A stretch of DNA of 39,881 nucleotides from NCBI GenBank assembly GCA_002737635.1, contig NSIC01000004.1, positions 1 through 39,881 on the forward strand, written 5' to 3'. Positions 20,346-38,231 of this stretch are shown here, piece by piece. A program made the position numbers and the translations under genes. Source of the DNA: Acidimicrobium sp. (GTDB lineage: Bacteria; Actinomycetota; Acidimicrobiia; Acidimicrobiales; Ilumatobacteraceae). The notes beneath the pieces were generated by a model. That model was not told where the DNA came from. It ran no database searches and saw only the letters and a program-made list of their open reading frames with translations. How positions within the stretch are numbered: position 1 is the first letter of the stretch; each line of letters opens with the position of its first letter.

Positions 20346-21065
20346 CTATACGCCTATTTTCGCGTATTTATAGCCAAGCCCACGGATGGTCACCACTAGT
20401 TGTGGTTCTGTGGGTTCTTTTTCAATTTTTGAGCGCAGACGCTTAATGTGCACATCCAGCGTCTTGGTGTCGCCGTAATAGTCGGTACCCCAGACCCGAT
20501 CAATGAGTGTTTCTCTGGTCATCACTCGGCCTGCATTAGCCATCAATAGATACAGCAACTCAAATTCTTTGAGTGGCAGCTTCGTAACTTCGCCACGAAT
20601 TGTCACGACATGTTGCTCGGGATCAATTGAAACTGCACCAATCGCCACAGTGCCGACACCCGTCAAATCACCGTCAGATTTTGACAACTCGCCGCGCCGA
20701 AGAGCGGCCCGCAATCTTGCGACTAGTTCACGCAGACGATATGGCTTGACGATGTAATCGTCAGCGCCAACTTCAAGACCGACAACCGTGTCGATTTCTG
20801 AACCCTTTGCTGAAACCATGATGATCGGCACTGCACTTTTTTTGCGAATTTCGCGACATACATCTGTGCCACTGACTTTCGGCAACATCACATCCAAAAG
20901 AACTGCATCTGGCTTAACAGCATCAAAAACTGCCAAGGCTTCGGCCCCATCACGGGCCACCTCAATTCGAAATCCCTCGCGCTTTAAGCCAACTTGAAGT
21001 GCTTCGATAAACGACTCTTCGTCGTCGACCACCAAAATTGTTGGAAGCGAATTGCTTATACTCAT
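20346..21065 (-). CDS. regX3: OmpR/PhoB-family response regulator (RegX3-like)
   Basis: 239 residues: receiver domain (1-120) with acidic pocket Asp14/Asp15, phosphoacceptor Asp58 (LLDVMLP) and DDYIVKPY, then a winged-helix DNA-binding domain (about 135-237) with LPLKEFELLYLLM and TLDVHIKRLRSKIE. Its start overlaps the kinase gene by 4 bases. With a SenX3-like kinase and phoU upstream, it is expected to control the phosphate-starvation response and to bind GTTCAC-type boxes such as those found upstream of phoU. Orthology to RegX3 is by similarity and context. Confidence 0.93.
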   Translation of the reverse strand: MSISNSLPTILVVDDEESFIEALQVGLKREGFRIEVARDGAEALAVFDAVKPDAVLLDVMLPKVSGTDVCREIRKKSAVPIIMVSAKGSEIDTVVGLEVGADDYIVKPYRLRELVARLRAALRRGELSKSDGDLTGVGTVAIGAVSIDPEQHVVTIRGEVTKLPLKEFELLYLLMANAGRVMTRETLIDRVWGTDYYGDTKTLDVHIKRLRSKIEKEPTEPQLVVTIRGLGYKYAKIGV

Positions 21066-22219
21066 GCCATTACTCCTGTCTGATCTAAGACTGATCCTTT
21101 AGATTGCTTAGGCAGACGCGGCATGCGAACCGTGAATGTCGAGCCAATGCCCTCTTCTGAACGCACATCGATGGAACCACCGTGTTCTAAAACAATGTGA
21201 CGCACGATTGAGAGACCCAAACCAGTGCCACCGGTCGCACGACTTCGTGCCTTATCGACTCGGTAGAACCGCTCAAAAATTCGCTTCTGATCACGTTCAG
21301 CAATACCAATGCCATGGTCGGTGACAGTCACCAAAATCTCATCACCCTGAGTCGCGCTCTCTACCGACACGACCCCACCTGCCTCGCTGTATTTGATGGC
21401 ATTATCTACGAGGTTCGAAAACATTGAAACTAGTTGCGCGCGATCGCCCCGCACCGAAAGTTCGGCCGAACCTGTCAATGACAAACCTAGACCTTGGCGT
21501 TTTGCAGCATGTTGGTTCGTACTCACGACCTCAACCAAAACACGGCCAAGATCGATGTCGGTCCATTCTTCGGTTCCACCGAATTCGACCCGCGACAGAT
21601 CTAAAAGGTCGTCGACAATTCGCGACATACGGTGAGATTCGGTGACGATTCGCTCGGCAAGTCGCCAAACAACTTCAGTTTCTGTTTCGCCATTCAGCGA
21701 ATCAGCAAGTGCCGCGACGGCACCAATAGGAGTTTTTAGTTCATGGCTCAAATTCGCAACAAAATCTGTCTGCATTGTGTCAATTCGCGATTTCTCGGTG
21801 ATGTCTTCAACCGTCACAACGGTTCGCTGATTGTCAATTACCTGCCCACACACTTTGAAAAATCGAGTTGTGCCAGCCACCACTTCAAGAATGCGTTCAC
21901 CTGAATTGGTCGTCTTGACTTCTTCGAGCATTTCATCAACTGCCTGATCAACCAAGATGTCTACATAACGCACCCCAGTCATGGCTGTGGCCACCCCATT
22001 TTGCAACCTTCGATCCAATTTTGCGTCAACGATCACGACACCAATCGGCAGCAGATCAAGAGCGTCCATCAAACTTTCAAGTTGGTCTTCAGTATTTGAA
22101 GTATTGACACCCGTTTCATTTTGAATTGCGTGACTGAGATTTTTTGATGAACGCTTCGAAATCAGAAACGCAATAATTCCTGTTACCACCGCACCAGACA
22201 AGAAAAAAACCAAGTCCAT
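21062..22219 (-). CDS. senX3: Sensor histidine kinase, SenX3/PhoR type
   Basis: 385 residues: one N-terminal membrane helix (about 3-21), a PAS-like domain (about 45-145), the HisKA dimerisation domain with phosphoacceptor His159 in SHELKTPIGA, and an HATPase_c domain with N box NLVDNAIKYS, GIGIAERD, and DKARSRATGGTGLGLSI, closely resembling mycobacterial SenX3. No large extracytoplasmic sensor is present, consistent with sensing phosphate via the Pst/PhoU complex. It lies 15 bases after phoU and overlaps the response regulator by 4 bases. Confidence 0.94.
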   Translation of the reverse strand: MDLVFFLSGAVVTGIIAFLISKRSSKNLSHAIQNETGVNTSNTEDQLESLMDALDLLPIGVVIVDAKLDRRLQNGVATAMTGVRYVDILVDQAVDEMLEEVKTTNSGERILEVVAGTTRFFKVCGQVIDNQRTVVTVEDITEKSRIDTMQTDFVANLSHELKTPIGAVAALADSLNGETETEVVWRLAERIVTESHRMSRIVDDLLDLSRVEFGGTEEWTDIDLGRVLVEVVSTNQHAAKRQGLGLSLTGSAELSVRGDRAQLVSMFSNLVDNAIKYSEAGGVVSVESATQGDEILVTVTDHGIGIAERDQKRIFERFYRVDKARSRATGGTGLGLSIVRHIVLEHGGSIDVRSEEGIGSTFTVRMPRLPKQSKGSVLDQTGVMA

Positions 22220-22234
22220 AACGGCCCTCTAAAA

Positions 22235-22966
22235 TTAACTTTCGGTTCGTGGAAGCAAAATCTCCCCAGTTCGGTCACCCACGCGAGCCTTGTAACGGTT
22301 AATGCCGTCTCTTTCTTTTACCCAGCCTGTGGCGATAAATCTTGTTTTTTCACTCACATTTACGGCATGGTCGCCGATGCGCTCATAAAAGCGAGCGACA
22401 ACCGCGAGCTGCACTGCTACTTGCAAATCAATTTTTGACTTTGAGTGTGACTCGAAAATTTGCTGAATGAACTGGCGGTGCAAACTATCTAAGTAAGAGT
22501 CCATGTCGTCGATTGCTGCGGCTTTTGCCGAATCGCTCTGTTCGAATGCTTCCATGGTTGCACCAAAGAGTTTTTGTGCTTGTTCACTCATTTTCGAAAT
22601 AACACCACGCAACATCGGGTCAATATCGTGACCATATATACGGCGCGCTGCCTTGCAAATGTTTACTACAAGGTCTGCCGAACGCTCAAGTTCGCCGGCG
22701 ATCTTGATGATCGCAATGATTTGACGAAGGTCAGCCGCAACAGGCGCCTGCAATGCCAAAATTTCGAAACATGAAATTTCTAGATCTGCGCTTCGACCGT
22801 CAAATTCGTCATCCGCCTGAACCAAATAATCTGCGCCCTCGAGATCGCCACTCAGCAATACTGCCGTTGCTCGCGGAATTGACTCTGTCAGCGAAGCCCC
22901 AAGACGAATTACTTCGGCGCGTGCCGACTCAAGGTCGCTGTGAAAATTCTTGCGAATCTCATCCAT
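22235..22966 (-). CDS. phoU: Phosphate-signalling protein PhoU
   Basis: Couples the Pst phosphate transporter to the sensor kinase. 243 residues forming two three-helix bundles, each with the PhoU metal motif (ELERSADLVVNI and YERIGDHAVNV). ATG 22966 is chosen over the in-frame GTG at 22984 because AAAGGTG sits 6 bases before it as a ribosome-binding site and the family begins at this point. No pst genes are in the window. It heads the phoU-senX3-regX3 operon and has two PHO-box-like heptamers upstream. Confidence 0.95.
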   Translation of the reverse strand: MDEIRKNFHSDLESARAEVIRLGASLTESIPRATAVLLSGDLEGADYLVQADDEFDGRSADLEISCFEILALQAPVAADLRQIIAIIKIAGELERSADLVVNICKAARRIYGHDIDPMLRGVISKMSEQAQKLFGATMEAFEQSDSAKAAAIDDMDSYLDSLHRQFIQQIFESHSKSKIDLQVAVQLAVVARFYERIGDHAVNVSEKTRFIATGWVKERDGINRYKARVGDRTGEILLPRTES

Positions 22967-23019
22967 CGTCGGCACCTTTCTCACTTTTCTCAGAACTACG
23001 ACTCACCACAACGGTAGCC

Positions 23020-23066
23020 CGTCAAAAGTGAACTTTAGTAGTCAAAAAAGTTACACGACGGTGAAC
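23020..23066 (-). promoter_or_regulatory. PHO-box-like direct repeats and -35 upstream of phoU
   Basis: On the minus strand GTTCACC occupies 23066-23060 and GTTCACT 23033-23027, exactly 33 bases apart, which is three turns of the 11-base unit known for actinobacterial PHO boxes. The unit between them at 23055-23049 reads TGTAACT and is partly similar. TTGACG (23025-23020) directly follows as a possible -35, so the boxes overlap the promoter as in Streptomyces phoRP. The spacing is seen; binding by the adjacent RegX3-like regulator is inferred. Confidence 0.55.
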
Positions 23067-23077
23067 AGATTAAAGCG

Positions 23078-25189
23078 TCACCGAACTTGAGTTGCTACAA
23101 CCCACTCGTGCAGACGCTGCTGAGCATCGCCAATTTCGTCACCCAAATTATGTTTGACCCAACTATCATCGGCGTTCAATTTGAAGTGGACAACATCTTC
23201 AGCGGTCAAAAAACTCAAGACTTTATCAAGCCATGCCCGATGCTTCGGGTGCGTTAATGGCACCAAGACTTCAACTCGCCCATCTAGATTTCTACCCATC
23301 AAGTCTGCCGAACCGATTAGGTGCAACGGTGATTCGTCTTCAAGCCCGTGCTCAAAACGATAGATCCGCGAATGCTCAAGATACCGACCCAGAATTGAGC
23401 GCACCTCGATGTTTTCTGACATGCTTGGCACGCCAGCGCGTAGGCAACAAATACCCCGAACTATCAGTTTTATTTTGACGCCAGCATCACTCGCTGAATA
23501 AAGCGCATCAATGATCGATGGGTCTGAAATCGAGTTCAGCTTTAGGGTGATCTGCCCCTTGTCTTTAAAAGTTGCCTCACGATGAATCAGTTCAAGAATT
23601 CGCGGACGCAATTGGTGCGGTGCGACAAACAGTCGCAAATAATCGGGCTCTTTGGCGTAGCCGGTCAAATAGTTAAACAACTCTGTTGCGTCCGAGCCAA
23701 TTTGCTCTTCACAGGTAAAAAACCCGATGTCTTCGTAAACCCTGGCGGTTACAGAGTTGTAGTTTCCGGTGCCGATGTGCACGTACCGCCTCATCTGGTC
23801 GCTGTCTTCACGCACGACCAAAATGCACTTCGAGTGAGTCTTCAAACCAACAATGCCATAAGTTACGTGCACGCCTGCGTATTCGAGCTCTTTTGCCCAG
23901 GCGATGTTTCGAGCCTCATCGAAGCGCGCCTTGATCTCGAGTACCACGGCCACTTGTTTGCCCGCTTCGGCGGCGCGAACTAAGTGCTTGGCGATTGCCG
24001 AGTCACCCGAAGTTCGATAGAGGGTCATCTTTATCGAGTGAACTTTTGGGTCGCTTGCCGCCTGCGCCACAAACGACTCGACCGAAGAAGAAAATGACTC
24101 ATGCGGGTGATGAACCAATAATTGTCGTTCTCGAATTACTTGAAAAATGCTCTGACTATTAAATTCAGCGGCTAGCAACCTTCCGGCAGTTAGCGGTGGC
24201 CATGGCTTAAATCGCAACCCAGGCAGATCGAGCGACGCCAATTGATTGAGTGCGCTCATTTCGATAAAACCAGAGTGATAGCTGATGTCTTCGAGTTCTA
24301 ATTCGAGTTCTTGACACATCAAGTCGACAGTTTCTTGAGCGGTGCCCTCTGGAATCTCAAGTCGAACTGCACGACCAAATCGGCGGCGGCGCAATTCCAT
24401 TTCGACAGCGGCCAACAAATCTTCGGCGTCTTCGTCGTCAAGTGAGAGGTCAGCGTTTCGCGTGACCCTGAACACGAAGCACTGTTCGATCAACATGCCC
24501 TGAAACAGCCGGGGCAAATTGGTCGAGACAACTTCTTCAAGTAAAACAAATTTATTACCGTCACCCACCCGCATGAACCGCGGAATATTCTTCGGAATTT
24601 TTAGCCTCGCAAATCTTTGTTCAGACGACTGTGGATCGCGCGCAACCACAGCCAAGTTCATCGCAAGGTTCGAGATATACGGAAACGGATGCGCCGGGTC
24701 AACCACTAGTGGGGTTAAGACAGGAAAGATCCTGCGGTCAAAGTCGTCTGAAAGTTTTGCTTTTTCAGATTCGGTTAAGTCTGACCATCCGACGACAAAT
24801 ACTTCAGACTGTTTAAGTCTTGGCAACAACTCTTCAGACCAGACTTCGTGTTGCCGGTTCACGAAATCTTGGGTGCGCCGGGTAATTTCGTGCAACTGTT
24901 GCTGGGGCGTCAAACCATCAACCGTTGGAGTATGAACATCACCTGCCACTTGGTCTTTGAGGGCGGCAACTCTGATTTGATAAAACTCGTCAAGATTCGA
25001 CGAGCAAATTGCCAAAAATCGGCATCGCTCAAGCAGTGGAACTTTGTCGTCACTTGCAAGAGTCAAAACACGATCGTTGAAATCAAGCCAACTCAATTCG
25101 CGGTTGATGTAATTTTGGTTGATATTTTGATCGTACGAAATTATTGACTCTCGTAGGTTTGTCAGAAAACGATTTCGCCAAAAAGTCAC
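23078..25189 (-). CDS. ppk: Polyphosphate kinase 1
   Basis: Reversibly polymerises the gamma-phosphate of ATP into polyphosphate. 703 residues with the four PPK1 domains: N-terminal YINRELSWLDFN (about 27-38), head domain, and two phospholipase-D-like catalytic domains holding His471 (VHIGTGNYN, the autophosphorylated residue) and His606 (RYLEHSRIYRFEHG). The start is a GTG at 25189; there is no ATG before the conserved region. It lies 58 bases downstream of a small unknown gene on the same strand and 93-111 bases upstream of phoU, forming a phosphate-storage block with ppx. Confidence 0.97.
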   Translation of the reverse strand: MTFWRNRFLTNLRESIISYDQNINQNYINRELSWLDFNDRVLTLASDDKVPLLERCRFLAICSSNLDEFYQIRVAALKDQVAGDVHTPTVDGLTPQQQLHEITRRTQDFVNRQHEVWSEELLPRLKQSEVFVVGWSDLTESEKAKLSDDFDRRIFPVLTPLVVDPAHPFPYISNLAMNLAVVARDPQSSEQRFARLKIPKNIPRFMRVGDGNKFVLLEEVVSTNLPRLFQGMLIEQCFVFRVTRNADLSLDDEDAEDLLAAVEMELRRRRFGRAVRLEIPEGTAQETVDLMCQELELELEDISYHSGFIEMSALNQLASLDLPGLRFKPWPPLTAGRLLAAEFNSQSIFQVIRERQLLVHHPHESFSSSVESFVAQAASDPKVHSIKMTLYRTSGDSAIAKHLVRAAEAGKQVAVVLEIKARFDEARNIAWAKELEYAGVHVTYGIVGLKTHSKCILVVREDSDQMRRYVHIGTGNYNSVTARVYEDIGFFTCEEQIGSDATELFNYLTGYAKEPDYLRLFVAPHQLRPRILELIHREATFKDKGQITLKLNSISDPSIIDALYSASDAGVKIKLIVRGICCLRAGVPSMSENIEVRSILGRYLEHSRIYRFEHGLEDESPLHLIGSADLMGRNLDGRVEVLVPLTHPKHRAWLDKVLSFLTAEDVVHFKLNADDSWVKHNLGDEIGDAQQRLHEWVVATQVR

Positions 25190-25626: not shown

Positions 25627-27177
25627 GTGGGCCCAAAATCAGAATCAATCATTGCCGCTCTAGACATTGGGACAAATAGTTTTCACTTGGTAGTTGCTCG
25701 GCCAGTTGAAACAGGCTTTGAAGTCATTGCCAGTGAGAAAGAAGTAGTTCGACTTGGCCATGGTGCGGGCGACATGAAACAACTCGAGCCCGATGCGATT
25801 GAACGGGGCCTTGCCTCTCTAAAACGAATGCGTGCAATCTCTGATGTTCACGGTGCAAAATTGCGTGCGGTCGCGACCAGTGCAGTTCGCGAAGCCAAAA
25901 ATCGCGGCGAGTTTATAAAGCGTGCGCGCAAAGAAGCCGACATTGAAGTTGAGATCATTTCTGGTGTCGAAGAAGCACGTCTCATTCACCTTGGTGCCCG
26001 CTACGCAGTTGCGGTCGGCGAACAACCGATGTTGCTTTGCGACATCGGTGGCGGTTCAACCGAGTTGGTAATCGCCTCGGGTGAAGAAATTTTGCTCTCG
26101 CGAAGTTTTAAACTCGGCGCCGTTCGTTTGACTGACAGATTTTTTAGCACCGATGCCCTGCATCCAAGCGCGCTCAGCAGTTGTCGAAAGTTTGTGCGAT
26201 CAATGCTGGCGACGATAAGGCCCGAAGTCACAGAACTTGGCTTTGAAGTTGCTGTCGGCTCATCCGGCACGGTCGAAGCAGTCGCCAAATTGATCAGAAA
26301 ACTCAACGACGAGCCAGAACCAAAGTCGTTCAACCGCCACGAATTCAGCGCCAAAGATGTAACCAAGATGTTGGATTTATTGGCCGAAGCACCGACTGTC
26401 AAAGAGCGTGCCAAGATTTTCGATATTGACTCTTCGCGCGCCGAAATTATTTTGGCCGGAGCCGTCATTTTAGAGGGCATTGCTCAGTCATATGATGTTA
26501 AAACGTTCGTTTACTCTGACTACGCGTTGCGAGAAGGAGTGCTCTTTGACACCCTCGCCCGTGAAAATCTGCTCGACCACCCCGAAGATGTTGACCCGGC
26601 ATTACAGAGTGTCAAACAACTTGCCGATCGATGCGACGATCGACCAGAGCATTCGGTTCATGTTTCAAAAATTGCGCTCTCACTTTTTGATTGTTTGCAA
26701 AAAAAACTCGATCTGCCGCTCGCATCGCGCAGATATCTCGAGGCTGCAGCGCTACTCGCAAATGTTGGCGTGATCGTTTCACACTCGAAACATCATCTTC
26801 ATTCTTACTATGTGATCAGAAACTCAGAACTAGTCGGTCTCACTGATCGCGAAATTGAATTGATCGCAGTCATCGCTCGTTATCACCGCAAAAGTGCGCC
26901 AAAACAGTCACACTCAGAATTTGCCCAACTTGATGAAGTCGACCAAAAACTTGTGACGTCACTTGCTGCAATTTTGCGAATTGCAATCGGTCTTGACCGA
27001 ACTCAAGATGGTCGCGTCAAGTCGGTGACTGTTCGCGCCGAAGATGATCAGTTTTTGATTTTCGCCAAAGCATCAGCGAAGGCAGATATCGAACTAAACC
27101 TTTATGCAGCCAATGAGCGTCGAAGTTTGCTCGCCGATGTGCTCACGACGAGAGTTAAAGTACTCGCACTCAAATAA
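25627..27177 (+). CDS. ppx: Exopolyphosphatase / GppA-type phosphatase with degenerate HD half
   Basis: Degrades polyphosphate from the end, or removes the 5'-phosphate of pppGpp. 516 residues, GTG start. The N-terminal ASKHA fold (about 1-310) has ALDIGTNSFHLVV, ATSAVREAKN, EIISGVEEARLIHLG and DIGGGSTELVI. The C-terminal part (about 325-510) aligns with the HD-domain half of E. coli PPX, but the metal-binding HD/HE pair is replaced by Ala378-Asn379 (LLANVGVIVSHSKHH), while His389/His390 remain. The C-terminal half is thus likely structural. It faces ppk and phoU across a divergent region, completing a polyphosphate synthesis/degradation pair. Confidence 0.94.
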   Translation: MGPKSESIIAALDIGTNSFHLVVARPVETGFEVIASEKEVVRLGHGAGDMKQLEPDAIERGLASLKRMRAISDVHGAKLRAVATSAVREAKNRGEFIKRARKEADIEVEIISGVEEARLIHLGARYAVAVGEQPMLLCDIGGGSTELVIASGEEILLSRSFKLGAVRLTDRFFSTDALHPSALSSCRKFVRSMLATIRPEVTELGFEVAVGSSGTVEAVAKLIRKLNDEPEPKSFNRHEFSAKDVTKMLDLLAEAPTVKERAKIFDIDSSRAEIILAGAVILEGIAQSYDVKTFVYSDYALREGVLFDTLARENLLDHPEDVDPALQSVKQLADRCDDRPEHSVHVSKIALSLFDCLQKKLDLPLASRRYLEAAALLANVGVIVSHSKHHLHSYYVIRNSELVGLTDREIELIAVIARYHRKSAPKQSHSEFAQLDEVDQKLVTSLAAILRIAIGLDRTQDGRVKSVTVRAEDDQFLIFAKASAKADIELNLYAANERRSLLADVLTTRVKVLALK

Positions 27178-32711: not shown

Positions 32712-35700
32712 CTATTTCGAGTTTTTGCTGGTCGAAGCCTTTGATTTTGCATTGGACTTTTTCGGCGCAACTGCCTTGCCGTTCGCCGCGGTCTTTTTCG
32801 GCGCAACTGCCTCGCCGTTCGCCGCAGTCTCATCCGGCGCAACTGCCTTGCCGTTCGCCGCAGTCTTATCCGGCGCAACCGGCGGATTATCCGTAGAGTC
32901 ACCTGCGGTTCCAGCACTTGATGCTGAGTCTGTTACAACCATAGATTTTTCAGATATCGAAATTTTGCCACTTTGTTCGACAATTACGACTTGATACGAG
33001 TTTTCACCCGCCGGATTGTCTGTAACTTTTAGCGCAGCCGCAGCCGCAGCCGGAACGCTACTAACCAAAATGCCGTTGCGATAAACATTTACAGTCGCGC
33101 CTGGTTTGGCAGCAATCTTAAAAGTAACTGCATTGCCAGCTGCTCGTGTGGGAGCCACAATTCGTAGTGTGTTTGCAGCAATTGGAGGCATCAGTTGACC
33201 CAATGTTGGTCGACGAACATTGTTGTTGAAATTGCCTGAATTGTTTGGCGGCAGAGTTGGCGGTACAGCGTTAGCCGGCACCGCGTTGTTAGGTGACGTG
33301 TTGCCAGGGACAGTGTTAATCGGCGCAGTACCAGTCGGAACTGTATTTGCTGGCGCAGTTCCAGTCGGAACTGTATTTGCTGGCACAGTCGTCGGCACAG
33401 TCGTCGGCACAGTCGTCGGCACAGTCGTCGGCACAGTCGTCGTTGTCGTTGTCGTTGTTGTCGTTGGTGCTGGTCGACTACCGCCACCGCCGCCACCACC
33501 ACCGCCACCACTACTTCCACCACCACCGCCGCCACCACTTGCTGGCGGAGTAGTGATTGGTGAACTGATGGATTGTGCAGGAGGTGTTGCACTAAGCAAC
33601 GAGTAGACGAGTTTGTTTGGCGAGCCAACTGGGTTGGCTATCAACTCAGATGTCGCCGTAGATGTGATCCAAGTTGTAACACGACTGACCGAAAGCGACC
33701 TATCGGCACTCAACGCCAAAGCGGCAACGCCTGCAACATGCGGCGACGCCATTGATGTGCCAGAAATAGTGTTCGTCGCAGAAGTCGAGGTATACCACGC
33801 CGAGGTGATGTTTGAGCCGGGAGCAAACACATCGACGCATGAACCGTAATTTGAATAACTTGCTCGCGCATCTGCCGATGTTGTTGCACCAACTGTGATC
33901 ACCGACGCTTCGGCGGCTGGCGAATAGTTGCAGGCATTTGCATTCGAGTTGCCGGCCGCCACGACAAACACGATGCCATCGGCAACGCCACGAGCAACAG
34001 CAAGATCAAGTGCAGCCGAGCGCGCACCACCAAGACTCATGTTGGCAACTGCTGGCACACCAGATTCGTGATGCGCAACAACCCAGTCGATGCCGGCTAT
34101 CACACCAGAAGTTGAGCCCGAACCAGCACAATCTAGAACTCGCACTGGCACGACGGTCGCTGCAGGTGCGACACCATAGTTGGTGCCGGCAACGGTGCCC
34201 GCAACATGGGTGCCGTGACCGTTGCAGTCTTGCGAGCCACGACTATCGGCGATTGAACTGAAACCAGAAACCACTCGACTGCCAAACTCACTATGGTTCG
34301 ACAACACACCGGTGTCAATGATGTAGACATTCACGCCAGCGCCTGAGAAGTTGCTGATGTAACGAGAGTTCAGCGGCAAGTTGCGTTGATCTATGCGATC
34401 TAAGCCCCACGACAATACAGAGATGCCCGATTCATCGCCGGCCGCCGGTACAACTGCAGACGAAGGACTCGATGGCAACGATGTGCCAATCGAGTTTGTC
34501 GCCGTCACCGTAAATGTGTAGCTAACGCCGTTGCTTAAGCCACGCACAACACACGACAATGAACCAGTCGTTGTGCAAGATTTGCTGCCCGGCGCTGATG
34601 TGACCGTGTATGCAGTGATTGCCGAGGCTCCATCACTAATAGGCGCAAGCCAATTAATCGTCGCAATTGAATCTCCTGCACTTGCTCGAACATTTTGAGG
34701 TGCATCTGGTGCTTGCGGAGTTGGCGCGACGGTGAATGCCCAGTTCAAACGCGTTGTACCTTTTTTGCCGCTATAACCATCGATTGCTACAAAATATGTC
34801 GTGCCTGCATTTACTGCGATTGAAACACGACTCCATAAACCAGATTCGCCAGTTGCATCGTCGTTAACAGCAATTGTTGTCAAGGCGTTAACACTGGCGC
34901 CCATATACGCGCCGAGAATCGTATCAAAGTCACTGCCGCTCGTCGTCAGCACGAGAGTGCCAGTCTCGGTGGCAACCCACTTGTACCAAATTGACGCCGC
35001 TGGTGCATAACCGCCGTGATTCGGCTCGCCTGTTTCGCGAGTTGCAGTAAGTGTCGAGCTAGATGAGTTGCCAGTCGAGTTCGTAACCGCAATCGCACCA
35101 GAGAACGGATCGTTCGCCAGCGAACTGATTGTCGTAACAGGTGAACTTTGTGTTGACCAGGCACCAGTGCCAACTTCGTTGGTTGCTGCAACTCTGAAAA
35201 TGTGACTCACGCCAGGGGTCAACGAGCGGATTACCGAGAAAGTCGACGCGCTAACGCCATCTGTGAGCGTTGTCCACGAGACACCCGAGTTTGTTGAATA
35301 TTGGATTGTGTAGTCACTGATTGGTGCGCCACCGTCAGTTGTAGGTTCTTCCCAATCGAGATCAAGTTGCCCGGTGCGTGCAGTCGCAATGACAGTTCTT
35401 GGCGCACCCGCCACGACTGGTGTCCATGGTGTGTAGGCCTCAGACGGTTCTGAAGGTTCGCCAATACCGATTGCATTTTTTGCACGCACCCTGAAAATAT
35501 GTGGCACGCCGTCTGTAAGCGGGCTGACGGTGCGCGCAACATTGGCGCAAACACAGCCGACAACGCCGGTATTGCCGTCCCATGTTGTCCAAGTTGTGCC
35601 GCTGTTTGTTGAATACTCAATGATGTAGTTGGTGAGTTCTGAGCCGCCGTTAAATGTTGGCGCTCCCCACTGAATTGAAACTCTGCGTGGCCCAATCGAA

Positions 35701-38231
35701 ACATCGTTAACACAACACGGGGCCGAAGGAATGCCAGGCGCAACAGCCGTTGTTGAGGTTGATGCAGTGCCGGTGCCTGAAATATTTATTGCACTGACCC
35801 TGAATATGTATGAGGTGGCATTGACCAAACCTGTAACTGTCGTCGAGCGAATTGTGCTTGTTGGGTCTGCGAATGTCGACCACGCCACACCAGCGTTCGA
35901 AGAATATTCAATTAGATAGTCACTAACCGAACTGCCACCATCTGAGACCGGTACCGTCCAACTTAAACCGATTTGATTCAATGCGATGTTTGTAACGCGA
36001 AGATCAAGAGGCGCACTTGGCACAACAATCGCCCACGGTGCACCAGAAGCAACACCTGATGGCTGACCTGTGCCAATGCTGTTAACTGCTTTGACTCTGA
36101 AAAAATAAGTTGTGCCGTTAGTCAGACCAGTGACTGTGGCTGTGGTTGAAGAAGAAACTCCATCATCGACAAGTGCGTAACCAGCGTTTATGTCAGTTGT
36201 GTATTCGACCAGATAGTCGGTGATTACCGAACCTCCATTTAGGGTTGGCGCTGACCAATTTAAACGCACACTTTGGTTGAGGGCAGTTGGCCGCAATGAA
36301 GTCGGCTCACCTGGAATGCCAGGAGTTGTGGCCACAACATTTGATGCGTCGCTAGTGCCCGCACCGCTAACTGCCTTCACTCTGAACGAGTAATTTGTCG
36401 CATTAGTTAAGCCAGTGACAGTTGCGCTCGTTAATGTCGAAACACCATCACTAAAAGTTGACCAAGAAGTGCCAGAGTTTGACGAGAATTCGATTAGATA
36501 ATCGGTGACGCTGCTGCCGTTATCGGTCGTTGGCGCAATCCATGTCAATTCGGCATTCGCATTGCCAGCAACAACGACTAAGTCGCGAGGTGTGCTCGGC
36601 GCAATCGGTGTTGGGGCGAGCCATGCTGACTTTGTGTAGAGAAAAAGATTTATCGACCCCGCACCAGGCGATGTCACGACATCGGGCGTGGCATAAGTAA
36701 TTAATTTTGCGGCGACTGAAGCCGGCGACATAGTCGGGTCGGCCTCAAGCAACAATGCTGCGGCGCCAGCGACATGCGGCGACGCCATTGACGTGCCCGA
36801 CAAACCACGCAATGAAGTCGACGAAGTGTGATACGCCGAGGTGATGCTCGAACCTGGTGCAAAAATGTCGAGACACGAACCGTAATTTGAATAACTCGCG
36901 CGCCCATCAACTGAAGTAGTCGCACCAACGGTTATCGCTGATGGTGCTGATGCTGGCGAATAACTGCAAGCCGAACGGTTGTTGTTGCCAGCAGCCACAA
37001 CCATCGTGATGCCATCGGCAACCGCGTTGGCAATTGCCATGTTGAGCGAACTCGAAAAACTGCCACCGAGACTCAAGTTGGCAACTGCAGGAGTGCCCGC
37101 GGCGTGATCGGTAATCGCCCAATTGACACCGGCAATAACATTTGACATGAAGCCACTGCCACGACAATTTAGAACGCGAACCGGTATCAAGCGAACCGAC
37201 TTGGCCACACCCGTAGTTGAACCACCGATTGTGCCGGCGACATGAGTGCCGTGCCCGTTGCAGTCTCGCGAACCATAACCATCAGCAATGGCGCCGTAGC
37301 CCGATTCAACTCGACCCGAGAATTCGACATGGTCAGGACGAATGCCCGTGTCAATGACATAAGCGGTGACGCCTGCGCCACCAAAGTTATATGTATACAT
37401 TTGGTTCAAGGTGTGGGTGCGCTGATCGATGCGATCTAAACCCCAAGAAGGCGGGTTGGCTTGATCGCCCTCGATCTCAATTACCTGGTTTGGTTCAATT
37501 GTTTCGACTCGCGGGTCTTTGCTGAGGCGCGCAACTTGAGATTCGCTCAACATCGCAACATAACCACTGATCGCTTGGGTGAATGCTTGGATAACTTCAC
37601 CACCTAACGCATTTTCAGCGGCGACGAACGCCTGCACATCAACATCTGGTCGCAACATCACGATCGAAGTGCCCTCGAGCGAGTCTTGCGAAGTAGTTGG
37701 GGGAACTGTCGTCGAGGTTGTAGCTGTTGCAGGAATCGTTGTCGTGCTCGAGCTAGTCGTCGAACTTGATGTGCTCGTCATCGTGGTCGAGCTAGTGGTC
37801 GAGCTAGTCGTCGAACTCGATGTCGAGGTTGAAGTCGTTGCAGGAATTGTCGTCGTAGTTGTAGAACTCGTCGAACTAGTCGTGCTCGTTGAAGTCGTTG
37901 TTGAATCTTCGTCGAGACGAATCACGCGATCAAGTTCGACAATTAAAACATCACGGTCGGCTTTAAGTCGGCGAACATCAGCAGCATCAAGTTCGGCGAC
38001 AAAACCATTTGCCGACCCGTCATAAACATCGCTGATCGAGTTGCCAAGACGCGCCTCTTTGGCAATTTTTGTTTGCAGATCTGCATTGCTCGACAACATC
38101 ACGATGTAGTCGCCCGTTGGCGCATCGGCGCCAGCAACTGGTGTTGGCAAAAATTGCAAACCTAAAGTTGCAACCATCGCAACCGACAGCCATGATCGCC
38201 ACTGTGACCGTTCAATTCGGGTTTGATTCAT
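32712..38231 (-). CDS. Giant secreted protein with two subtilisin (S8) domains, FN3 repeats and a basic tail
   Basis: 1839 residues. Order: signal peptide (1-35, ending PVAGA); inhibitor-I9-like propeptide (41-107); Thr/Ser-rich linker (110-180); second I9-like propeptide (188-254); S8 peptidase (263-535) with Asp294, His327, Ser481; five FN3 domains (545-1035); a pre-peptidase C-terminal-like beta domain (1038-1168); a sixth FN3 (1172-1262); a second S8 peptidase (1275-1547) with Asp1306, His1339, Ser1493; Gly-rich and Thr-Pro linkers (1564-1665); an Ig-like domain (1689-1766); and a Lys/Ala repeat tail (1784-1839). Both catalytic triads are intact, and each peptidase keeps four cysteines at matching positions, as in proteinase-K-like enzymes. 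No LPXTG or membrane anchor; the basic tail may bind the cell surface. GAGGAA lies before the ATG. Confidence 0.93.
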   Translation of the reverse strand: MNQTRIERSQWRSWLSVAMVATLGLQFLPTPVAGADAPTGDYIVMLSSNADLQTKIAKEARLGNSISDVYDGSANGFVAELDAADVRRLKADRDVLIVELDRVIRLDEDSTTTSTSTTSSTSSTTTTTIPATTSTSTSSSTTSSTTSSTTMTSTSSSTTSSSTTTIPATATTSTTVPPTTSQDSLEGTSIVMLRPDVDVQAFVAAENALGGEVIQAFTQAISGYVAMLSESQVARLSKDPRVETIEPNQVIEIEGDQANPPSWGLDRIDQRTHTLNQMYTYNFGGAGVTAYVIDTGIRPDHVEFSGRVESGYGAIADGYGSRDCNGHGTHVAGTIGGSTTGVAKSVRLIPVRVLNCRGSGFMSNVIAGVNWAITDHAAGTPAVANLSLGGSFSSSLNMAIANAVADGITMVVAAGNNNRSACSYSPASAPSAITVGATTSVDGRASYSNYGSCLDIFAPGSSITSAYHTSSTSLRGLSGTSMASPHVAGAAALLLEADPTMSPASVAAKLITYATPDVVTSPGAGSINLFLYTKSAWLAPTPIAPSTPRDLVVVAGNANAELTWIAPTTDNGSSVTDYLIEFSSNSGTSWSTFSDGVSTLTSATVTGLTNATNYSFRVKAVSGAGTSDASNVVATTPGIPGEPTSLRPTALNQSVRLNWSAPTLNGGSVITDYLVEYTTDINAGYALVDDGVSSSTTATVTGLTNGTTYFFRVKAVNSIGTGQPSGVASGAPWAIVVPSAPLDLRVTNIALNQIGLSWTVPVSDGGSSVSDYLIEYSSNAGVAWSTFADPTSTIRSTTVTGLVNATSYIFRVSAINISGTGTASTSTTAVAPGIPSAPCCVNDVSIGPRRVSIQWGAPTFNGGSELTNYIIEYSTNSGTTWTTWDGNTGVVGCVCANVARTVSPLTDGVPHIFRVRAKNAIGIGEPSEPSEAYTPWTPVVAGAPRTVIATARTGQLDLDWEEPTTDGGAPISDYTIQYSTNSGVSWTTLTDGVSASTFSVIRSLTPGVSHIFRVAATNEVGTGAWSTQSSPVTTISSLANDPFSGAIAVTNSTGNSSSSTLTATRETGEPNHGGYAPAASIWYKWVATETGTLVLTTSGSDFDTILGAYMGASVNALTTIAVNDDATGESGLWSRVSIAVNAGTTYFVAIDGYSGKKGTTRLNWAFTVAPTPQAPDAPQNVRASAGDSIATINWLAPISDGASAITAYTVTSAPGSKSCTTTGSLSCVVRGLSNGVSYTFTVTATNSIGTSLPSSPSSAVVPAAGDESGISVLSWGLDRIDQRNLPLNSRYISNFSGAGVNVYIIDTGVLSNHSEFGSRVVSGFSSIADSRGSQDCNGHGTHVAGTVAGTNYGVAPAATVVPVRVLDCAGSGSTSGVIAGIDWVVAHHESGVPAVANMSLGGARSAALDLAVARGVADGIVFVVAAGNSNANACNYSPAAEASVITVGATTSADARASYSNYGSCVDVFAPGSNITSAWYTSTSATNTISGTSMASPHVAGVAALALSADRSLSVSRVTTWITSTATSELIANPVGSPNKLVYSLLSATPPAQSISSPITTPPASGGGGGGGSSGGGGGGGGGGSRPAPTTTTTTTTTTVPTTVPTTVPTTVPTTVPANTVPTGTAPANTVPTGTAPINTVPGNTSPNNAVPANAVPPTLPPNNSGNFNNNVRRPTLGQLMPPIAANTLRIVAPTRAAGNAVTFKIAAKPGATVNVYRNGILVSSVPAAAAAALKVTDNPAGENSYQVVIVEQSGKISISEKSMVVTDSASSAGTAGDSTDNPPVAPDKTAANGKAVAPDETAANGEAVAPKKTAANGKAVAPKKSNAKSKASTSKNSK
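32758..32880. repeat. 36-bp tandem repeats in the protease tail
   Basis: Three full 36-base units (32758-32793, 32794-32829, 32830-32865) and a partial fourth encode a repeated 12-residue unit (VAPDKTAANGKA and variants with K/E changes). They form an in-frame minisatellite in the basic C-terminal tail. Confidence 0.85.
33322..33441. repeat. Two 30-bp and five 12-bp tandem repeats in the Thr-Pro linker
   Basis: Two 30-base units (33322-33351, 33352-33381; one mismatch) are followed directly by five identical 12-base units GGCACAGTCGTC (33382-33441), coding on the minus strand for repeated TTVP. All lengths are multiples of three, so copy-number change keeps the frame. Confidence 0.9.
33477..33542. 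repeat. Poly-glycine coding tract
   Basis: CCG/CCA triplet-rich DNA coding for about 20 glycines with a few serines (residues 1564-1585) between the second peptidase domain and the Thr-Pro linker; a flexible spacer prone to slippage. Confidence 0.8.
37692..37904. repeat. Low-complexity Thr/Ser linker coding region
   Basis: Degenerate short repeats built from GTCGAGCTAGTCGTC-like pieces encode a 70-residue Thr/Ser stretch between the two propeptide-like domains. Likely extended and possibly O-glycosylated. Confidence 0.75.

Follow-up and report, generated by a model that had tools for sequence, protein, structure and literature searches.

The window, the whole stretch of 39,881 nucleotides analyzed here, belongs to an assembly of 983,952 bases that is 71% complete. 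On its minus strand ppk1 is followed, after a gap of 111 bases, by phoU (ATG at 22966), senX3 and regX3. The gap contains GTTCACC (23060-23066) and GTTCACT (23027-23033), both on the minus strand and with their starts exactly 33 bases apart, and directly thereafter TTGACG (23020-23025); the positions given in the preliminary description, which read the pair as an 11-base PHO-box-like array and TTGACG as its −35 region, are correct. The features of the locus are:

20346 to 21065, minus strand: gene of a RegX3-like response regulator, the predicted binder of the array (Response_reg and Trans_reg_C; best solved relative RegX3, 2oqr, E 6.6e-81)
21062 to 22219, minus strand: gene of a SenX3/PhoR-like sensor kinase (HisKA and HATPase_c; among NCBIfam models PnpS and PhoR score best, each below cut-off)
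22235 to 22966, minus strand: phoU (PF01895, TIGR02135), start taken as ATG 22966
22973 to 22979, minus strand: likely ribosome binding site of phoU, AAAGGTG, found by eye
23011 to 23016, minus strand: predicted −10 region TACCGT (TAnnnT); all 26 same-genus loci have TAnnnT at +50 relative to unit 1
23020 to 23025, minus strand: TTGACG, the tail of unit 4 plus spacer, rejected as −35 region; found in 8 of 26 loci
23023 to 23033, minus strand: unit 4, GTTCACT plus TTTG; all 26 loci have GTTMA at precisely +33
23034 to 23044, minus strand: unit 3, TGACTAC plus TAAA (consensus nGACRAC), degenerate and deviating from the unit consensus; GAC invariant in 25 distinct sequences
23045 to 23055, minus strand: unit 2, TGTAACT plus TTTT (consensus of the relatives nGTCACT); G and A in 25 of 25, C in 24 of 25 distinct sequences
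23056 to 23066, minus strand: unit 1, GTTCACC plus GTCG; GTTCAC without variation in all 26 same-genus loci
23078 to 25189, minus strand: ppk1 (TIGR03705), in the same direction as phoU, its stop 11 nt ahead of unit 1

For phoU the ATG at 22966 was preferred to the GTG at 22984 of the open reading frame list because the latter precedes the likely ribosome binding site; in the relatives aligned over this region the first codon is ATG, GTG or TTG. Divergent to ppk lies a gene of the Ppx/GppA phosphatase family (25627-27177), so that genes for both synthesis and breakdown of polyphosphate likely adjoin the phosphate signalling operon.

The heptamer alone is not rare, since GTTCACY occurs 11 times in the window as against 10.3 times expected. 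There are 78 perfect GTTMAY sites (41 on the plus and 37 on the minus strand), among which the pair in the ppk-phoU gap is the only one on the same strand at a distance of 11, 22, 33 or 44 bases; by rough arithmetic about 0.3 such pairs are expected by chance. The spacing by itself is therefore weak evidence, and it is conservation in 26 of 26 loci that decides. A further pair phased by 11 nt with one mismatch, GTCAACACAAAGTTCACC, lies on the minus strand at 35140-35157 within the open reading frame 32712-38231; no other adjacent pair of this sort occurs in the window, and this one is probably due to chance. Upstream of ppk no pair phased by 11 nt was found in the window at the thresholds used.

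Conservation was examined in same-genus freshwater Acidimicrobiia, here labelled acIV-like. The set comprises the window and 25 further genomes, hence 26 loci, of which 25 blocks are distinct; left out of the 28 other genomes of the genus were G007, G009 and G012, in which the gap runs off the contig or regX3 is cut. In all 26 loci, which are related and not independent sequences, unit 1 reads GTTCAC, GTTMA follows as unit 4 at +33, and TAnnnT comes at +50, both counted from unit 1. Columns +12 to +17 (nGTCACT) and +23 to +28 (nGACRAC) are conserved as well, which gives four units with a period of 11 bases, the third degenerate. The 11-nt type of array proposed at the outset thus stands, with four units instead of two (23023-23066), and the 33-base spacing, the loss of which in close relatives had been named as an argument against it, is kept throughout. 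When compared with the PHO-box core, a direct repeat of 11 nt made up of a 7-nt GTTCACC core and 4 loose bases, units 1 and 4 match, unit 2 matches in part and unit 3 poorly. The distance from the box to the start of phoU varies from 100 to 142 among the same-genus loci, which marks the conserved block as a separate unit.

The proposal that TTGACG is a −35 region did not survive the alignment: the hexamer is present in only 8 of the 26 loci and lies only three bases ahead of the conserved −10 region, and by eye there is no TAnnnT 16-19 nt after it.

Outside the genus the array was followed with a unit model built solely from the acIV phoU blocks, namely from their units 1 and 4. Upstream of phoU in other genera (14 loci) a four-unit spacing of 11 was the best among spacings of 8-16 (mean −1.0 versus about −12.5 or lower), as it also was for pstS-like genes (14 rows, 13 distinct sites), arsC (5) and pstS (2); with a two-unit model a spacing of 12 tied with 11 in the other-genus phoU set (4.60 versus 4.66). 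The array is absent from 4 of these 14 loci (L058, L059, L060 and L104). The −10 count omits these four and takes L109 for L055, which is on the same contig; among the ten loci with array, nine have TAnnnT at +49 and L057 has it at +71. The full 58-nt acIV weight matrix transfers across genera in part and is a poorer guide than the unit model: at most 7 of 500 shuffles reached its score in seven of the 14 loci, and 25 to 412 did so in the other seven. In another family of the order (L064, genome G044) a perfect GTTCACC-N4-GTTCACC precedes a PhoU-like gene whose product is 32% identical to the query.

For pstS of other families 16 loci were available, from 14 genomes and 14 other families of the order. 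A spacing of 11 was again the best, here among 7-18 (6.8 versus −9.4 or lower). Four of the 16 loci (L121, L123, L124 and L139) have no array and are omitted from the −10 count; among the 12 with a pair, TAnnnT lies at +49 in nine and at +60 in two and is missing in one, so that the −10 region keeps the same 11-nt phase in 11 of 12. With the pair as anchor, the unit score averaged over the 12 loci is raised again at +33 and −11. In one of them (L118) another spacing scored slightly higher (14.0 versus 13.2).

The preliminary description had also expected the box near other phosphate genes. This holds for pstS and pstS-like genes of sister genomes; it does not for ppk of the window, for PhoD-type phosphatase, a possible target of which none was found in the 29 genomes of the genus, or for raw numbers. 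The exact pattern GTTMACN5GTTCAC has 24 matches in the 29 genomes versus 25 for the reversed pattern, the relaxed pattern 47 versus 48 and, in the own genome with up to two mismatches, 46 versus 68; a regulon was therefore not argued from raw counts of the two-unit pattern. Enrichment concerns where the matches lie and not how many there are, as 14 of the 24 exact matches are intergenic versus 1 of the 25 reversed ones (by one open reading frame rule, at least 120 amino acids). One more (L149), counted as coding by this rule owing to a start 6 nt ahead of the box, brings the number to 15, and these precede pstS-like genes (8), pstS (3, in one case with the gene off the contig) and arsC-like genes (4). 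Six of the remaining nine (L141, L145, L153, L154, L155 and L158, from six genomes) read GTTCACCA(A/G)GCGTTCAC inside what looks like one and the same coding gene, and are probably fixed by the coding sequence. The relaxed matches received 27 new identifiers (L164-L190, among them some sites already identified before), of which 13 were read by eye: two precede pstS-like genes and one an arsR-type gene, while the others look coding or have no recognized phosphate gene, although L187 may be intergenic. The own genome has three relaxed matches, and the two read by eye look coding; in this assembly, 71% complete, neither pstS nor arsC was found.

A pstS-like gene occurs in 16 of the 29 genomes of the genus, in 14 with its 5′ end, and 13 of these 14 carry the pair (the exception is L255), in two cases with GTTTAC as second unit. 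TAnnnT is at +71 in all 13 and in 4 of 4 acIV pstS loci, a count that leaves out L241, where the contig ends 269 bases above the match. From this phase the acIV pst promoters look like six units, 5 bases and the −10 region, and those of phoU like four units and 6 bases. The pstS-like protein (L246-L259) is unusual in having an open frame of about 455-489 amino acids with a TIGR02136 match in two separated pieces; in several of these loci its gene lies, by eye, just downstream of a pstB-like open reading frame. The box thus recurs upstream of phosphate genes: at phoU in 26 of 26 loci, at acIV pstS-like genes in 13 of 14 and at other-family pstS in 12 of 16, and in addition at pstS and arsC-like genes of the genus.

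ArsC-like proteins are encoded in 14 of the 29 genomes; they belong to LMWPc, and the NCBIfam models nearest to them are those of arsenate reductases, with scores below cut-off. Of 13 arsC loci examined, ten matched the search motif and three (L226-L228) did not and were left out. In five of the ten the pair is directly upstream of arsC (four perfect, one with one mismatch), in three it precedes a gene for an arsR-type/LMWPc fusion, confirmed by Pfam in one locus, that lies ahead of arsC (two perfect, one with one mismatch), and in two (L217 and L221) it is absent at up to one mismatch. Where the pair stands directly upstream of a lone arsenate-reductase-like gene (L216, L220, L222, L223 and L225), TAnnnT is at +49 or +50 in five of five. 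In L218 and L219, from position 528 of the strand read, the pair is soon followed by a perfect palindrome of 22-28 nt and by genes for the arsR-type/LMWPc fusion, an ArsC-like protein with an N-terminal extension and an aquaporin-family protein (MIP), TAnnnT being here at +61, outside the usual phase. The palindrome could be an ArsR operator, and a joint control of the operon by phosphate and arsenic is possible. In the genomes of L136 and L137 pst and arsenic genes cluster: the contig with the pstS-like gene also carries arsC-like genes and, in the neighbourhood of the pstS-like gene, an open reading frame that by eye is aquaporin-like. In those parts of the literature on PHO control of arsC that were accessible no arsC with a PHO box was found; PhoBR control of arsenite oxidation is reported, in a source available in part, for Halomonas.

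The RegX3-like protein aligns best with RegX3 from Mycobacterium tuberculosis (274 bits versus 199 for MtrA), the two sharing the nearly identical stretch GDTKTLDVHxKRLRSKIE, which is presumably the recognition helix. The genome thus contains an OmpR-family regulator of the PhoP/RegX3 type, and a match to it with E of at most 0.001 exists in each of 61 genomes, a count that includes paralogues.

The actinobacterial systems with which the array can be compared are described as follows in the accessible parts of the papers. In Streptomyces coelicolor the PHO box, the site of PhoP, consists of 11-nt units of GTTCACC (PMC4415409), and the box of Streptomyces pitH2 has four of them, two good and two weaker (PMC7866108). 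Heptamer, unit length, the four-unit case and pstS as target are as found here (PMC4415409, PMC7866108). Streptomyces ppk, however, has a box, whereas ppk of the window has none and the box lies before phoU; and here the regulator is encoded in a co-directional phoU-senX3-regX3 operon behind ppk. In Microlunatus the PolR site GTTCACnnnnnGTTCaC, found as a MEME motif and supported by EMSA and DNase I footprint, has pstS, ppk and pit as targets (PMC6754071). Its two-unit motif is identical, although the lineage is a different one and PolS-PolR is speculated to sense oxygen (PMC6754071). The mycobacterial RegX3 site is an inverted repeat of GTGAAC with 5-7 nt between (PMC7525159); regulator (2oqr) and half-site (GTGAAC/GTTCAC) are homologous or shared, whereas the repeats here are direct, of 11 nt, with units 1 and 4 in the same direction 33 bases apart, so that the array is not of the inverted-repeat class.

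There is a slight chance that another OmpR-family regulator, MtrA-like or some other paralogue, binds the array and that RegX3 is merely nearby. The MtrA motif is a direct repeat too, and in the own genome the regulator finds three matches, one with 45% identity. Direct repeats are, in the available part of the source, used by OmpR/PhoB-family regulators (PMC4832192). Against this, the targets are phoU-senX3-regX3, pstS and arsenate genes, the protein encoded next to the array is nearer to RegX3 than to MtrA, and the motif equals that of PolR and PhoP (PMC6754071, as far as available).

The position of the array relative to the −10 region resembles that in E. coli. At pstS and phoA of strain K-12, both of them activated promoters, there are 11-nt direct repeats, which we take to be PhoB boxes: at pstS the first of four units, the third being degenerate, starts 50 nt ahead of TATTTT, and at phoA the last unit starts 17 nt ahead of TATAGT. 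The numbers of the acIV phoU promoter are the same, 50 from unit 1 and 17 from the last unit, although the E. coli unit is CTGTCAT and not GTTCACC, and from the TCA core of the last unit to the −10 region there are 14 nt in E. coli and in other-family pstS and 15 in acIV phoU. In E. coli the spacing of the pho box to the core promoter is described as strict (PMC10294691), and PhoP of M. tuberculosis, also of the OmpR family, as binding direct repeats with a strict 4-bp spacer as a tandem dimer (PMC4832192), both in the portions of the reports at hand.

Very likely, in our view, the array serves a phosphate-starvation promoter as its operator, and there the RegX3-like protein would activate its own phoU-senX3-regX3 operon. 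Upon phosphate limitation the phosphorylated protein would bind to the four 11-nt units head to tail as two tandem dimers. Unit 4, which ends 6 nt ahead of the −10 region, would substitute for a −35 region, and since the last unit takes this place, bound RegX3 is predicted to recruit RNA polymerase and to raise expression of the operon that encodes it, a positive autoregulation. The pst transporter and, in part of the relatives, the detoxification of arsenate are probably turned on by this regulator too. Binding, dependence on phosphate and the sign of the effect are what we infer from the computed features, namely the array, its spacing, its phase to the −10 region, its recurrence at pstS and arsC-like genes and the adjacent RegX3-type regulator.

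The sign could in principle be the opposite, with RegX3 sitting over the promoter and lowering transcription of phoU-senX3-regX3, as PhoB represses or activates depending on the position of its site (PMC10294691, in the part available). This is a shade less probable still than binding by another regulator, since the array is placed relative to the −10 region as at E. coli pstS and phoA and in nearly the same phase as at pstS of the relatives, which is expected to be induced. It is scarcely credible that GTTCACC instead belongs to a weak intrinsic ppk terminator (GTTCACCGTCGTGTAAC plus T6), with the repeat arising by coincidence: 11 nt past the ppk stop GTT-CAC can form a stem with GTG-T-AAC immediately ahead of TTTTTT, but the fold is no better than that of shuffled sequences (z 0.78, 158 of 200 shuffles at least as good), a terminator scan found none, the stable G+C-rich hairpin with T run that defines the class is lacking, and in relatives such as L033, L034 and L041 pairing and T run are lost (by eye) while unit 1 is kept.

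Judged by its sequence, the array is a genuine PHO box of the ordinary kind, and the control is probably a RegX3-driven autoregulation, as the preliminary description had predicted from an 11-nt array ahead of phoU-senX3-regX3; position and conserved spacing both argue for it. Its further supposition that the box had not been described in this lineage agrees with the literature joining Acidimicrobiia and PHO boxes, in which no description was found, most subscription papers lying outside the search; Acidimicrobi, RegX3 and phosphate together led only to a Microbacteriaceae genome paper, available in part.

With some reserve we lean towards a wider rule for the order, according to which RegX3 would act at mostly four or six 11-nt units, the last starting 16-17 nt before a TAnnnT −10 region and replacing the −35 region, so that targets would be predictable in each genome from the phase. 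The freshwater acIV regulon would then include arsenate reductase and an arsR-arsC-aquaporin operon under joint PHO/ArsR-type control, which would couple phosphate scavenging with the detoxification of arsenate. Of the findings, the phase rule and the arsenate targets deserve the attention of specialists.

Phosphate is often limiting in lakes. The actinobacterial PHO box, described for Streptomyces and relatives, is here extended to the largely uncultured Acidimicrobiia of such waters, and the fixed 11-nt phase from array to −10 region would provide a sharp rule for finding phosphate-starvation genes in incomplete genomes from metagenomes. The recurrence of the box at arsenic genes suggests a connection between phosphate shortage and the detoxification of arsenate.
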